A DNA stretch of 64,000 nucleotides from Magnetovibrio sp. (GTDB taxonomy: Bacteria > Pseudomonadota > Alphaproteobacteria > Rhodospirillales > Casp-alpha2): positions 6,135 through 70,134 of the forward strand of contig NZFO01000016.1 of assembly GCA_002690705.1 (NCBI GenBank), written 5' to 3'. Shown here one piece after another: positions 53,057-59,510 of the stretch. Every line of letters begins with the position of its first letter. The stretch's first letter is position 1. Both the position numbers and the translations under genes were made by a program. The notes under the pieces were generated by a model, which worked only from the letters and a program-made list of their open reading frames with translations, did no database searches and was not told where the DNA came from.

Positions 53057-53774
53057 TTAGTTATTATGAGATGGAGTGTCAGCATTTTCAGAACCAAAAT
53101 TAAGCAAGTAACCACTCTTGCCTCTAATACGTTTACCCTCGAATAGTCCTTTAGCGATAAATTATTGTTCCTAATTTTTTAAGACACCATTCAAGATAGT
53201 TGGCTTTTGGGCCTATGTGTACACCATGCCCTCCGCTACGAAATAGAGAATTCCATACCATCATTATCATTCGTCCCGACCGATGTAGTAGCTCCGTTTT
53301 TTGACTCTGGGTTGGTCTTGATGCTGGCGACAAATTACTATTAAAACACTCTCCATCGTCCTCCCGCAGATCACTCTAGGCAACTTTACGATTCAGGATA
53401 ATCTCAGAAGTGCCTCGCCCAAGTGAGCTGAAAAAGCCTGCCCCAGCGGTAAAAGTTGCATGCCCAACACCCGATAACATGCTTCGTTCTAGTCCTTGAT
53501 CTGACATAATCTGTTCTAAATGATTTTTTCGGGCATCTTCTCGTGTTAATTTAGACATCAACACGTCGCCTGAAAATTGATTGCCACTGTGAATGATAAA
53601 TAAAATTTTAGAGGCAGGCGGCGCGTTCCAAGAATACCTATCAGTGCACATGTGCCACTCACCTTTATTAGTTAGGGCCATTATAGCTATATTTAGTACA
53701 GGCAGATCAAGAAGTGTTTTCCCACAATTTTCCCTTTGCTTTTGTTCTTCATTTTCACTGATGTTTTGTTCCAT
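53057..53774 (-). pseudogene. Decayed gene of unknown family
   Basis: A minus-strand coding trace broken twice. The first 132 codons (from MEQNISENEEQ, with PPASKILFIIHSGNQFSGD and GVGHATFTAGAGFFSSLGRG) end at a TAG at 53376-53378. The same frame continues for 75 codons through WNSLFRSGGHGVHIGPKANYLEW to a stop at 53151. A neighbouring frame then continues GLFEGKRIRGKSGYLLNFGS to a stop at 53057. One nonsense change and one frameshift explain this. The family is not recognised. Confidence 0.6.
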
Positions 53775-54095: not shown

Positions 54096-54779
54096 TTAAT
54101 GGCTACAGCTTTTATTACAGGATAGTAGGCCCCCATTCTCCAACAATCGAGCAATCACTAATTCAATAAGCTTTCCACTAAAGCTCACGCCATCCACTTC
54201 ACATCCAAAAAGAGAGCCACTTTAATTTACCGTATAAATAGACTATTTCGTTTCCGCAACCAAAAGGGCATGGGATCCTCCACCGCCGCGCGCAATATCA
54301 GTTGCAACTTTGGGACTAAGCATACACACAGTTTTAATAAGCGAAACGCCGATGATATTTTAGAGCGCACTTAATAATTTGGTGCCTACAATCTGGTTCG
54401 GTATTCCACCCTTAAAACGGCCAATGATCCTTTTACAAGCATCGATTTAAAAATCGAGAAACGGATTATCATCGCTAAAGCAACAGACCGCATTATGGAC
54501 ATTGCGAAATCCCCTTACGCCCCCATTTTTTTTATCAGGTTGCATCCAGATTTCCCGGGAAAAAGCGAATTCTTCCATAAGTGGCAAAGAAAATTCAATT
54601 GGGTTGAAAATTGACACGTTAGGGTCGATCCAAGCTGCTATGACGTATCCCTCCGATAGCGCATCACGAATTGCAAGCAAACACGCCAAATCTGTAATGA
54701 CAGGCAGTCGTCCGCCCGCACGTTCACGGTATCAAGAAGGCGTCATTGCAAGTAAGTCATCGCCAAGATAGTGGTATTC
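54096..54779 (-). pseudogene. Decayed glycosyltransferase-like gene with five in-frame stops
   Basis: One minus-strand frame, with no shift, reads as a continuous protein interrupted by stops at 54732-54734 (TGA), 54447-54449 (TAA), 54360-54362 (TAA), 54243-54245 (TAG) and 54222-54224 (TAA). Segments: YLGDDLLAMTPS, RAGGRLPVITDLACLLAIRDAL, GYVIAAWIDPNVSIFNP (the DxD-like spot of nucleotide-sugar transferases), REIWMQPDKKNG, GIPNQIVGTKLLSAL, and GCEVDGVSFSGKLIELVIARLL. The glycosyltransferase assignment is an inference from the WIDPN motif. The 5' end is lost. Confidence 0.7.
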
Positions 54780-54899
54780 TCAATCATTTCTTTTTCCCCA
54801 ATCATGTACACTTAACAAACTTGTGTGATCCAAGCGGGCACATTATCAGCCTGGTAACTCTGTATTATACCTCGTTTCATTACCGTTATGGCATAATAG

Positions 54900-57800
54900 T
54901 CAGTTCTTGTTTCGTAACGTGACCAATAGCAAATCTGTTTTTGATAATAGCTGAAAGACCGAACCAGTGCCTTTGTTCAGAATTCGTACCACCCCATTTT
55001 TAGTGTCAGGAGGAGCCGACCAACGCAAATCGTCTATTTCGCGTATTTCTAAAAGTGTTTCTTTTCCTGATTTTTCGTCTTGGCTATGCCAACGCATTAC
55101 ACGGTTTGGGCGCTTAGGCGCACCAATTAGGGCGGTCCAAGTCTCTGGCATTTCGGTTGGTGGCCCATATAAATTTTTGAAATGTTCACTTATCGCCCAC
55201 ACTTCTCCAGATGGAAAAAGTGCATGAATTTGAACTGCATTCCCCTCAACATATTGCACAATTCCCCTCGTTCCGCGGTAAATTGACGACTTTACATCAA
55301 ATGCAGTTGCAATATCTTTCGGCCAAGAAATTGTTTCAATACAGAATTGTGTTTGCCATCGCTTTTTTTCAATACAAACAGTGTCTGACTTCGGTCTCAC
55401 GGAGACATTTTTCCCTAACTTATGATCCAATCCAAAGTTAAACGAGACATTCCTTAATGCGACCGACGCGTTAAGTGAAGTTTTAATCTCAGCCGGATTT
55501 TTAATTGTGATACCAAGAGCTGGGGCTTTTACCCTGCGATTTACGGGTGGGAGCGTTGCCAGATCATCTGTCCGTATAATATTTGGCATCATGTCAGCTG
55601 ATTTTGATTTGAAATCATGGTTTGCCGCTTCAACCTTCGAGATGATATCAGCCACAGGAGTTTTGTCCTCTGAAACCGAAGTAAGCTTTGCATTCGCTAT
55701 GATCTCAAGTTTTCTTGCCGTATCAGATGCGGCGCTTGGCCTTACCTTAATCTTTTTATTAGCTGATTTCATGTCCAGATCCAACGATGAGATCGTTGGT
55801 TGTGGTTGAGCGGTTCCAACAATTTTAATGTTTGGAGTTTCCATTTGTGTTGGGTCTCCTGTGGGTTGCCAAAACGGCTCCGGCTGGACCTCCGGACCCA
55901 ATCGGCCCAAACCAAAAGACTTTAATTTATTCTTCGAAATTTCTTGGCTAGAACTATCAGGTACTCCCGAAGCTCTCTTTGCGGGCGGAATCGGCAGGTT
56001 CATAGACTTCTTATCAAAACTCCCCTCGCCGAGCGTCGCCGCAGTTGACGCCTTTACTTTGTTAGCTATAGGGTCGATCGCATTTGTAGCGATTTGAGCA
56101 TTCGGTTTGTCGGCGGGTGAGACCGAATTGAGAATTGCTTGCTCGGCCGTGTTTTTAGATGTTTTCTTTGTGTCAACAATACCGGTAACCCAATCGATAA
56201 ATCCGAGTGACTTTTTATTGTCTGCTGCAGGATTCATAATTGAACTTACGCTTGGGCCTCTTGAGGAGATCTCAGCGGCCACGATAGTATTAACATCTGG
56301 CATTATAGCTTGAATCCCATTTCCCGATGTCTTCCAAATATTTTTAACTTGTGATAATTTGATATGACTTGGTGCTAACTCAACTACTAACTCTCGTACT
56401 TGAGGTGCAACCGGCACCGCAACTATGACAGGGTTCTCCCTCGATTGAGTTGAAAAAGCTGCGGTTTTGAGCGGTGACTTGCCTTTATGAGACTGTTGGG
56501 ATCGATTTGCCACGGGTTGACTACCTGTCCTGCCAAGGGAGATTCCCTCAGAAAACGTCTGAGATTCCGGGTTGCTAGGAGATTCAGGTGAAGCTTGAAT
56601 TAATTTCAACCGAACTACATCGAGAGATGTGTCCACATCGCTAATTTCTGGCTCTCTGGAAGCAGGGGAAAATGTTTCAAGCGCGCGCTCAGCCAATGTA
56701 GGTATTGATCGAGGAGTGTATTCTGTCCCTCTGTCATCACTCCGCTGATCAGGCATTTTAGGCTCTGGCGGCTCAATACTTGTTGTTGAGCTCTTGGAGT
56801 AATTTAACCTTTGAAAGGGTGGGGGCGTTGACGCGGAAGTCGGTAGCGCGGCTCCCACAACAGGAAGAATATTGTTCTCGGATACCTCGGTTTTTGGTAA
56901 GTCCAAAAAATTACTTAGTACTGGATTTGAGTGACTATCCCGGTCCTTGGATTTACTCTGCCTAGCAATCTCATTTGCCTCGCTCTCTCGTATGTCGGGA
57001 ACCTCCCAGCTATCTTGAAGAACGGGCTTCACCTCAGCGATAATTAGAGACGCCCGCCTTGCCGAATCGTGCGGAACTGAGTGATAACCTCCGTCTAACT
57101 CTTGATTGACTGCCTGGGTTTTTATTGATTTGAATTCGGTCACAGCCCGATCGGCTGGCAATGATCTCACGTGCTCTTGCGTTTCAATTTTTTCTTCTAC
57201 AATCTCACTGACACGTTCGTCAGATTTTGAATAATTTAAAATATTCTCGCGTTTAAATGACGGACTCAGGATCTGCGATGGTGGCGGTGTAGCGAGAAAA
57301 GAAGAAATAACTTTGGTGCTGTTGATGGGTTCTATGCCAACCTGCAAACTTGTTTCGGCGGTAACTGATGCCTTTCTCGTTCTTTTCGCCAAGGCTTTTG
57401 GCTCAGCCCCAAGACTACCAGCGCGCTCCGTTTCGACTAGCTCGTCTGATGATGGCGTGAAAATTTTCACAATACGTTCAACCATAGATGGCTTCGAACG
57501 CTCTTCATCTCGAAAAGTTCTAGCATTTTTCTCGTTATCAGCTGCCTCAGGTTTGGACACGCTAACTAAGCCTGAATATTCGACTGAGCTAGTCACTGCT
57601 TCAACAGACAAGGGCTCTGAGGCTATGGATGGCTGCAGCACTTTTTTCCCAGAAAGCTGCGGTCCAACTTGCAAAATCGGGTTATCCCTAGAAACTTGAC
57701 CCACATAAGTGTCTGACGCAGCATATGGCACTGGCAAGGCTGTTCCATGTACCCCATTGGGAGCCCTCTGTTCTGACGATGGCACTTGCATGCCCGTCAT

Positions 57801-59510
57801 CCGAGAAACCAAGGACGGCATGGAGCGTGCCGTGGGTTCCTCTGCTCCGTCAAGGTTCTCCGTCTGGTCTTTGCGTAAGTTAGGCGATTCAACAATTGAT
57901 ATTACTTCTGCGAGAGAGGCTGGCTCCTCATACCGTGCTTCCAATTCAGTGGTAAAGGGCTCAATGGATTTAGGAACAGACTTCACATTTTCTAAGGGTG
58001 GGTCAACTGACTGGAAAAACGTGCTCAAACCTTGAAATAATGATCTTTTATCAAGAACCTCCCGTACCTTTTCCTGCCCATCCGGTACTTGTGTATCCGC
58101 AGACGCCAATCCTTCCGTTGCGGTGGTTGATGCAATTTTTATATTAACTAACTCTTTTGTAGCCTCAAAATCCTGTACCTTGTCCGCGGTCTGATTTTCT
58201 TTGCTCGCGTCAGTCTCAGTTGATTTAACAGGGCTTGGTCCAGGTTCTGGTTTTTTCTCAGACGTTTTTATTATATTCAAAAAGCTCGCAATCTTACCCA
58301 TAAATGGATTTGAATTTGAAACTTGATTAGTGGACTTTACGTTGGTTTCTTGATTGACTGGGGTCACCGGTGAATAAACCGAGGGAATTGATGGCTGCGG
58401 TTGCGCAGTTCCAATGATCTTAAGTTTTGGCGCAGTAGCGTTGACTGCCTTTCCAGACGGCTTCCAGAGACCCTCTGCCAGCGGTTTCAAATCTTCCTGT
58501 CCCGGGATGCGCTCCGCTAACTTTATCGCAGCTACAGACGGCTGGCGCGCTTTGGTAATATCTCCTTCTTTTGTTGTGGGGACTTCCTTGAATTTTAAAA
58601 AACCTTTAAATTTTTCAAGAATTTTTCTTTGATCCAAACCTGTCACGGATTCGAATACACCCACTGGCTTTTGGGTGACTTTAATAGAGGGGTTCTGATC
58701 ATTTGGCGCTAAATCAGATTTCATATTATCAGGCACCTGACCATCTCCAATGTTCGATAATACTCGATCTTCATCTAACTGCTGGCTAGGCCTGGCTGAG
58801 CGAGGAGGACCTAGAGATTTTGATCGCTCTACACGATTTTCAGATTTATCGATAATATCAGGAAATTCAAAACCCTGATTAATTGGGTCGGTTTGTTGTT
58901 TAGCCCTATCACGAACCTTTTCGCTAACCTGGCTATTCGCGGACATTATATCTTTGATTTGAGCTTGAATAGATGGTTGTGGTCGCACAGTTCCGATGAT
59001 CTGAATTTTTGGGGTCACGTTTTTGGGGGCTATAACTGATGGCTGCCACATCGTCTCAGCAATTGGTGCACGCTTTGTCTCGGCACTAACAGCGGGAGAT
59101 GACTGCGACAAAAGGGGCTTTTGACTAGTGCCGACCTTCGACGCTTTAACAATGGTAACAGGTACCGATTGAACGGGCGGCACTGAAACTTTTAGGTCAC
59201 TCAAACTTGGGCTCTGCAATCCACTGGGGGACTGATTTTGCATTTGTTTTACTGAAAGCAAATAATGTGCGACGCCATAATGCCCTTTGTCCACGGCCAA
59301 ATCGACAGGCCGGATGCCAAATTCATTGACCGCATCCAGATCAGCGCCACCGACAACGCTTGCTTTAACGCCATCTATATCGTCTGACCATACGGCGTCA
59401 AACAACCGCTTTGTTGCCAATGACAACCCACCATCCGCCCCGGCAAGTTGAGGGACAAAAACTGCAAGTCCGACGGCTAAAACTAGAGCCACGCGGACAC
59501 TTATACCCAT
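54900..59510 (-). CDS. Giant exported ankyrin-repeat protein with repeated linear motifs
   Basis: 1536 residues. A signal peptide (residues 1-25, cleaved near QLAGA) is followed by about two ankyrin repeats (30-90). A long Pro/Ser/Lys/Glu-rich, probably disordered spacer runs from 91 to about 1340, and a folded-looking C-terminal domain occupies about 1345-1536, with two cysteines at 1379 and 1390 and WPKDIATAFD, GIVQYVEG and LRWSAPPDTKNG. Short motifs recur in the spacer: W-x-P-[ST] ... IIGTxxPQPSI at 154-181, 348-375 and 1213-1240 (diverged at 1058-1088), and PS[LM]-x-x-R ... PSS-type units at 561-580, 671-690 and 933-954. AAGGAAG precedes the ATG. A periplasmic scaffold role is inferred. 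Not assigned to a named family. Confidence 0.75.
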   Translation of the reverse strand: MGISVRVALVLAVGLAVFVPQLAGADGGLSLATKRLFDAVWSDDIDGVKASVVGGADLDAVNEFGIRPVDLAVDKGHYGVAHYLLSVKQMQNQSPSGLQSPSLSDLKVSVPPVQSVPVTIVKASKVGTSQKPLLSQSSPAVSAETKRAPIAETMWQPSVIAPKNVTPKIQIIGTVRPQPSIQAQIKDIMSANSQVSEKVRDRAKQQTDPINQGFEFPDIIDKSENRVERSKSLGPPRSARPSQQLDEDRVLSNIGDGQVPDNMKSDLAPNDQNPSIKVTQKPVGVFESVTGLDQRKILEKFKGFLKFKEVPTTKEGDITKARQPSVAAIKLAERIPGQEDLKPLAEGLWKPSGKAVNATAPKLKIIGTAQPQPSIPSVYSPVTPVNQETNVKSTNQVSNSNPFMGKIASFLNIIKTSEKKPEPGPSPVKSTETDASKENQTADKVQDFEATKELVNIKIASTTATEGLASADTQVPDGQEKVREVLDKRSLFQGLSTFFQSVDPPLENVKSVPKSIEPFTTELEARYEEPASLAEVISIVESPNLRKDQTENLDGAEEPTARSMPSLVSRMTGMQVPSSEQRAPNGVHGTALPVPYAASDTYVGQVSRDNPILQVGPQLSGKKVLQPSIASEPLSVEAVTSSVEYSGLVSVSKPEAADNEKNARTFRDEERSKPSMVERIVKIFTPSSDELVETERAGSLGAEPKALAKRTRKASVTAETSLQVGIEPINSTKVISSFLATPPPSQILSPSFKRENILNYSKSDERVSEIVEEKIETQEHVRSLPADRAVTEFKSIKTQAVNQELDGGYHSVPHDSARRASLIIAEVKPVLQDSWEVPDIRESEANEIARQSKSKDRDSHSNPVLSNFLDLPKTEVSENNILPVVGAALPTSASTPPPFQRLNYSKSSTTSIEPPEPKMPDQRSDDRGTEYTPRSIPTLAERALETFSPASREPEISDVDTSLDVVRLKLIQASPESPSNPESQTFSEGISLGRTGSQPVANRSQQSHKGKSPLKTAAFSTQSRENPVIVAVPVAPQVRELVVELAPSHIKLSQVKNIWKTSGNGIQAIMPDVNTIVAAEISSRGPSVSSIMNPAADNKKSLGFIDWVTGIVDTKKTSKNTAEQAILNSVSPADKPNAQIATNAIDPIANKVKASTAATLGEGSFDKKSMNLPIPPAKRASGVPDSSSQEISKNKLKSFGLGRLGPEVQPEPFWQPTGDPTQMETPNIKIVGTAQPQPTISSLDLDMKSANKKIKVRPSAASDTARKLEIIANAKLTSVSEDKTPVADIISKVEAANHDFKSKSADMMPNIIRTDDLATLPPVNRRVKAPALGITIKNPAEIKTSLNASVALRNVSFNFGLDHKLGKNVSVRPKSDTVCIEKKRWQTQFCIETISWPKDIATAFDVKSSIYRGTRGIVQYVEGNAVQIHALFPSGEVWAISEHFKNLYGPPTEMPETWTALIGAPKRPNRVMRWHSQDEKSGKETLLEIREIDDLRWSAPPDTKNGVVRILNKGTGSVFQLLSKTDLLLVTLRNKN

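Follow-up and report, generated by a model that had tools for sequence, protein, structure and literature searches.

Reading frame and domain layout

The window, that is, the whole 64,000-nucleotide stretch of Magnetovibrio sp. DNA analysed here, contains a minus-strand ATG frame (54900-59510) that is open for 1,536 codons, as an earlier reading made without database searches had stated. From base composition, about 85 stops are expected in a stretch of this length, and the other two sense frames contain 80 and 124, indicating that the frame is kept open by selection. It is a genuine gene, and orthologues occur within both its genus and its family. All window coordinates given below refer to the minus strand. 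The order of parts in the 1,536-residue product is a signal peptide, two ankyrin repeats, approximately 1,250 disordered residues and a C-terminal domain (CTD) with two Cys residues.

The predicted signal peptide (residues 1-25; 59436-59510) consists of a hydrophobic stretch followed by LAGA/DGG, and a counterpart stretch is found in the orthologues. This signal-peptide-like N-terminus supports the export that the sequence-only reading had proposed. Together with the two invariant Cys residues of the CTD, it would place the giant protein in the periplasm.

The signal peptide is followed by the ankyrin head (residues 31-91; 59238-59420). The Pfam model Ank_4 scored below the cut-off in the window protein and above it in the relative L055, and the modelled head of the orthologue L032 superposed on solved ankyrins with about 1 Å over 55-58 residues. 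As in ankyrin-repeat proteins, the head thus has the ankyrin fold. The previously noted ankyrin repeats are therefore borne out as to fold, but there are just two of them. Unlike ankyrin-repeat proteins, the window protein is predicted to be exported, has two repeats only, and the remaining chain is unrelated.

The linker (residues 100-1345; 55476-59213) is predicted to be disordered. In the AlphaFold2 model of L032 (814 residues), the head reached pLDDT values of 94-98 and the CTD mostly 75-95, while the linker mostly stayed below 50, in agreement with the disordered spacer described before. Two short helices were seen within this otherwise low-pLDDT chain. Across the family, linker length ranges from about 100 to 1,250 residues. 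L035 and L036 contain long near-exact internal duplications of head and linker, which could be due to recent duplication or to an assembly artefact.

The C-terminal domain and its family

The CTD (residues 1346-1536; 54903-55475) is conserved in a family of 41 sequences, in which two Cys residues are invariant, besides positions with W, F, G, E and R. Its AlphaFold2 model is confident (pLDDT 89, pTM 0.86). The CTD is an alpha/beta domain and probably disulphide-bonded. Sequence searches of Pfam, NCBIfam and the PDB with the CTD returned no matches. SPOR was not among even the weak Pfam matches of the CTD, and none of the 41 members gave a convincing match to any Pfam entry. Fold comparison yielded a best VIA Z of 5.5 for any chain and a best Foldseek E of 0.018, values that are weak and in the chance range. 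No fold match was accepted, as only weak PsbP/DcrB/START-like entries appeared. The likeness of the model to the PsbP/DcrB/Mog1/EagT6-type fold is likewise weak (VIA Z 3.4-4.5, within the chance range), and sequence similarity is absent.

Of 61 relatives, 53 contain a match. The search with a CTD profile that the sequence-only reading had recommended detected the domain in 81 of the 150 genomes sampled from the host's order, Rhodospirillales, and in only 6 of 385 across the class. A search of genome contigs with the window CTD alone gave no matches; a seven-sequence CTD alignment recovered eight named loci in the genome-contig search. The named relatives are from Rhodospirillaceae and Magnetovibrio metagenome-assembled genomes, and no plasmid-borne CTD copies were found. 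Literature searches did not turn up any paper on these proteins. This protein family is thus undescribed, centred on one order and rare elsewhere in the class.

Paralogues of the CTD are frequent in the host's family, often two or three per genome. In the tree, the window protein groups with same-genus orthologues in a clade with 99/97 support. The window genome (96.5% complete) has one CTD gene only; both same-genus relatives carry genes of all three clades.

Gene neighbourhoods of the three clades

Members of the window's clade are followed by a glycosyltransferase-like gene. In the window, only a pseudogene of it is left (54123-54880; 44% identity to L031 by tblastn), interrupted by a frameshift and several in-frame stops, whereas the giant frame has remained intact. 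We therefore rejected an operon partnership between the two in the window. The glycosyltransferase-like homologue has a WIDADVLVF motif and no Pfam match up to an E-value of 5. The decayed downstream region also contains a 132-residue frame (53376-53774) with no Pfam or NCBIfam matches. An OYE gene adjoins the window gene and is also common to L031 and L032, its closest relatives.

The second clade (16 loci) is found near SecD-SecF and a squalene/phytoene-synthase-like gene. Since these genes do not form a single operon, the SecDF association looks like shared synteny.

In six genomes, genes of the third clade lie directly behind those for the ABC and HlyD proteins of type I secretion. Most of these loci also have a substrate or TolC gene: a substrate of the RTX/FecR type is encoded at L052, L063 and L116, and TolC (OEP) at L063, L114 and L115. 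Operons of this kind, which serve the type I secretion of RTX adhesins (LapBCE/BapA type), thus encode one paralogue clade of the CTD. The earlier statement that no named system matches is right for the CTD itself but has to be qualified in view of this clade. The CTD genes of L051, L052, L063, L114, L115 and L116 have no ankyrin head and are mostly followed by an aldehyde-ferredoxin-oxidoreductase-like gene.

These neighbourhoods raise the possibility that the CTD family has an accessory function in type I secretion, acting in the periplasm with the TolC-HlyD-ABC conduit or with its giant RTX/adhesin substrate, and that the ankyrin clade is derived. Besides the third clade, several loci are in line with this explanation. 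At L070, the CTD gene is followed by TolC and then by a frame of 3,623 codons that weakly matches BapA-prefix; a MaeB-TolC pair, an anchor common to L114 and L115, lies a few kb from the L035 gene; and giant cadherin-like genes are located near L031, L032, L037, L039 and L066. However, the 16 loci of the SecDF-linked clade have no such secretion genes alongside, and L053 and L117 retain the CTD gene without a transporter. The CTD also differs from the known components of type I secretion (ABC, HlyD, TolC, LapG/LapD), and the window gene lies outside such an operon: no type I secretion gene adjoins it, and the sole ABC homologue detected elsewhere in the window genome was 47% identical to an imperfectly stitched query, an ABC protein whose C-terminal piece had been put in front, so that the matches hold piecewise. 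We regard a role of the whole family in type I secretion as somewhat unlikely.

Amphipathic helices recur along the linker

The sequence-only reading had listed short amphipathic helices near residues 297, 402, 490 and 1101. All four were recovered, the last one at 1103, and a fifth was found at 675. With a matrix trained without the window, matches were obtained to helix 1, KILEKFKGFLKFKE (about 296-297; 58584-58625), helix 2, PFMGKIASFLNIIK (402; 58266-58307), and helix 5, GFIDWVTGIVDTKK (1103; 56163-56204). The best match in the window, with 18.8 bits, was helix 3, SLFQGLSTFFQSVD (490; 58002-58043). Helix 4, SMVERIVKIFTPSS (675; 57447-57488), was identified by both the helix matrix and internal scores and is at the same time copy 2 of the second unit described below. 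When the window was left out of training, its linker gave five helix matches compared to 0.62 in shuffled linkers, and none of 1,000 shuffles reached five.

The same holds for the relatives. A total of 134 helix matches were found in 40 linkers, where shuffles predict 4.2, and 33 of the 37 linkers longer than 100 residues have at least one helix. The median spacing is 95 residues, and the number of helices rises with linker length (r 0.68). Helix density was 6.3 per 1000 residues, whereas other polar segments, taken from neighbouring proteins, had 1.0; this contrast is flattered by the family-trained matrix.

Conservation was compared in eight pairs of orthologues with helices and alignable linkers; the window linker cannot be aligned to those of its orthologues. 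In six of the eight pairs, the helices change more slowly than the remaining linker. Identity in helices versus the rest of the linker was 0.79 vs 0.45 for L031/L032 and 0.76/0.64, 0.65/0.43, 0.64/0.43, 0.45/0.30 and 0.43/0.26 for the five further pairs; three of the pairs are among L040, L041 and L042 and thus not independent. In the other two pairs, L047/L060 and L059/L065, the helices showed no such difference.

The helices follow a nearly palindromic pattern. Reversed linkers gave 108 matches compared to 140 in the native direction and are therefore unsuitable as a negative control. Because they score almost equally, we do not claim a strict oriented helix motif. A near-palindromic pattern indicates weak constraint on polarity and on the exact sequence, and this would also be compatible with membrane contact. 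The helices could thus be membrane-binding, in which case the protein would be an envelope spacer on the inner or outer membrane that does not dock on specific proteins. Their isolated occurrence along the chain, a mean moment of 0.57 and bulky F/L/I faces agree with this explanation. On the other hand, their mean net charge is just +0.26, many copies are conserved beyond what a generic membrane helix would need, and the W-x-P unit that recurs in the same linker is not predicted to be helical. A pure membrane spacer is therefore, in our view, quite unlikely.

The W-x-P unit is restricted to one clade

A 28-residue unit had been reported to occur three times at equal length, plus one diverged copy. 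The three copies (28-30 residues) are real: copy 1 (residues 152-181; 58968-59057), at the ancestral position behind the ankyrin head, and copies 2 (residues 346-375; 58386-58475) and 3 (residues 1211-1240; 55791-55880), identified by internal scores and the unit profile, gave internal ungapped scores of 95-130, compared to 62 as the best of 20 shuffles. The possible fourth copy (residues 1056-1085; 56256-56345) is not established; its score of 59 is below the best shuffle, and its profile E-value is 92. A larger tandem block of 194 residues (149-342 vs 343-536, comprising unit and helix) is likewise not established, as its score of 47 outside the unit was reached by 32 of 500 shuffles.

In pairwise comparisons, 15-16 of 36 residues agree between the copies. 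Fourfold-degenerate sites, small in number, agree at only 4/9, 4/7 and 5/9. Agreement of residues in the face of largely randomised fourfold sites indicates that the copies are old and that their residues have been retained.

Relatives were searched with a profile built from the window's three units alone. L031 and L032 matched with E-values of 5.5e-10 and 4.1e-9 and L138 with 0.0039; matches in L035 and L036 were weak (E 0.05 to 7), and some of the copies in these two are near-exact duplicates of one another. Behind the ankyrin head, each of these five proteins has a copy at the corresponding place, and the truncated L139 ends inside the unit. The consensus of this clade-specific segment is W-x-P...I-I-G-x-A-x-P-Q-P. 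The same profile search did not find the unit in more distant clades of the family. Conservation of the units in orthologues with otherwise divergent spacers had been put forward as support for docking motifs. Indeed, all checkable close orthologues keep the unit, even though their linkers otherwise cannot be aligned to that of the window protein, but the other clades do not have it. Judged from these alignments and searches, the W-x-P unit is a conserved motif of one clade, multiplied in the window species and not family-wide. The family-wide repeat of the linker is the amphipathic helix, rather than this unit.

A second unit had been described as occurring three times. The copies lie at about 562-565, 671-674 and 934-937, and internal scores identified copy 1, RSMPSLVSRMTGMQVPSSEQR (562; 57765-57827), and copy 3, RSIPTLAERALETFSPASREP (934; 56649-56711), in addition to the one that coincides with helix 4. 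The repeat is real for the better pairs, which score 68-73; the 562/934 pair scores 47. As the helix match at 675 falls inside this unit, the second unit can in part be regarded as a subtype of the amphipathic helix. The pattern TPPP...NYSKS, said to occur twice, did not survive: its score of 37 is below the shuffled maxima, and the relatives checked did not contain it.

Peptide binding is common among ankyrin heads. Helices or W-x-P unit might dock on the ankyrin head or the CTD of the protein itself, in cis or between molecules, and the latter would give rise to a polymer. Consistent with self-docking, CTD and helix arrays co-occur, and the short L051 and L052 have almost no linker and zero helices; there is also a very weak likeness of the CTD fold to the helix-binding EagT6/SciW and to DcrB. 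However, this similarity (Z 5.5 or less) is within background, and the AlphaFold2 model of full-length L032 gave no confident placement of unit or helices on the head or the CTD. In this model, the unit has low confidence and is neither ordered nor helical nor fixed in position. Binding to its own domains thus seems improbable. Random low-complexity drift of the spacer, with repeats that are recent or due to chance, would fit the range of linker lengths (about 100 to 1,250 residues) and the chance-level scores of TPPP/NYSKS and the fourth unit. It is highly improbable because of the conservation tests: the residues of the W-x-P unit are kept although fourfold sites are largely randomised, the unit is conserved in orthologues, and the helices greatly outnumber those in shuffled linkers and, in most pairs, evolve more slowly.

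A putative periplasmic tether

On balance, we favour the interpretation that the giant protein is exported by Sec and acts in the periplasm as a tether or scaffold; its helices and W-x-P units may bind a partner. The two-repeat ankyrin head at the N-terminus would bind protein, and the long disordered chain would join it to the alpha/beta CTD. Along this chain, short helices at intervals of about 95 residues, together with the clade-specific W-x-P segment, may be docking sites, and they might fold upon contact with the partner. Several weak sites on one chain could together provide avidity as well as length and reach.

Close parallels among known systems are FtsN and other SPOR-domain proteins of E. 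coli, with an extended periplasmic region that bears short helices, one of them essential, and ends in a small folded C-terminal domain (PMC4462998). Like FtsN, the window protein has, by prediction, a disordered linker with short helices and, judging from its signal peptide, a periplasmic location. Unlike FtsN, which has a cytoplasmic tail, a membrane anchor and a SPOR domain, it carries a signal peptide and an ankyrin head, and there are five helices in its linker of about 1,250 residues. It also differs from SPOR-domain proteins in that its CTD matches neither SPOR nor any other Pfam entry. By analogy, the giant protein would work like FtsN-type periplasmic tethers, but it is not a member of this group, because no SPOR match was found and an ankyrin head is present.

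The analysis defines a family that has no Pfam or NCBIfam entry and singles out the elements of its linker that evolution has retained. Should the helices prove to be docking sites, a natural series would be available within the family (1-8 sites, linkers of about 100-1,250 residues) in which effects of site number and spacing in the periplasm could be followed. The paralogues within type I secretion operons provide a testable way in to function. Going further, the family could represent a new class of beads-on-a-string periplasmic adaptors across one order. The ankyrin head and a new disulphide-bonded domain would carry between them a long disordered chain with helix motifs at regular spacing, on which envelope machines could be assembled, those for type I secretion of giant adhesins among them; we consider this broader proposal rather unlikely.

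Two minor observations concern the surroundings of close relatives. Cadherin-like repeat frames of 18,810 codons (G002:C143, about 52000-91300) and 9,276 codons (G033:C62) occur in these genomes. At L031 (10828-15450), L032, L037 and L039, a 2OG-Fe(II) oxygenase-like gene is situated beside a giant cadherin-like gene.
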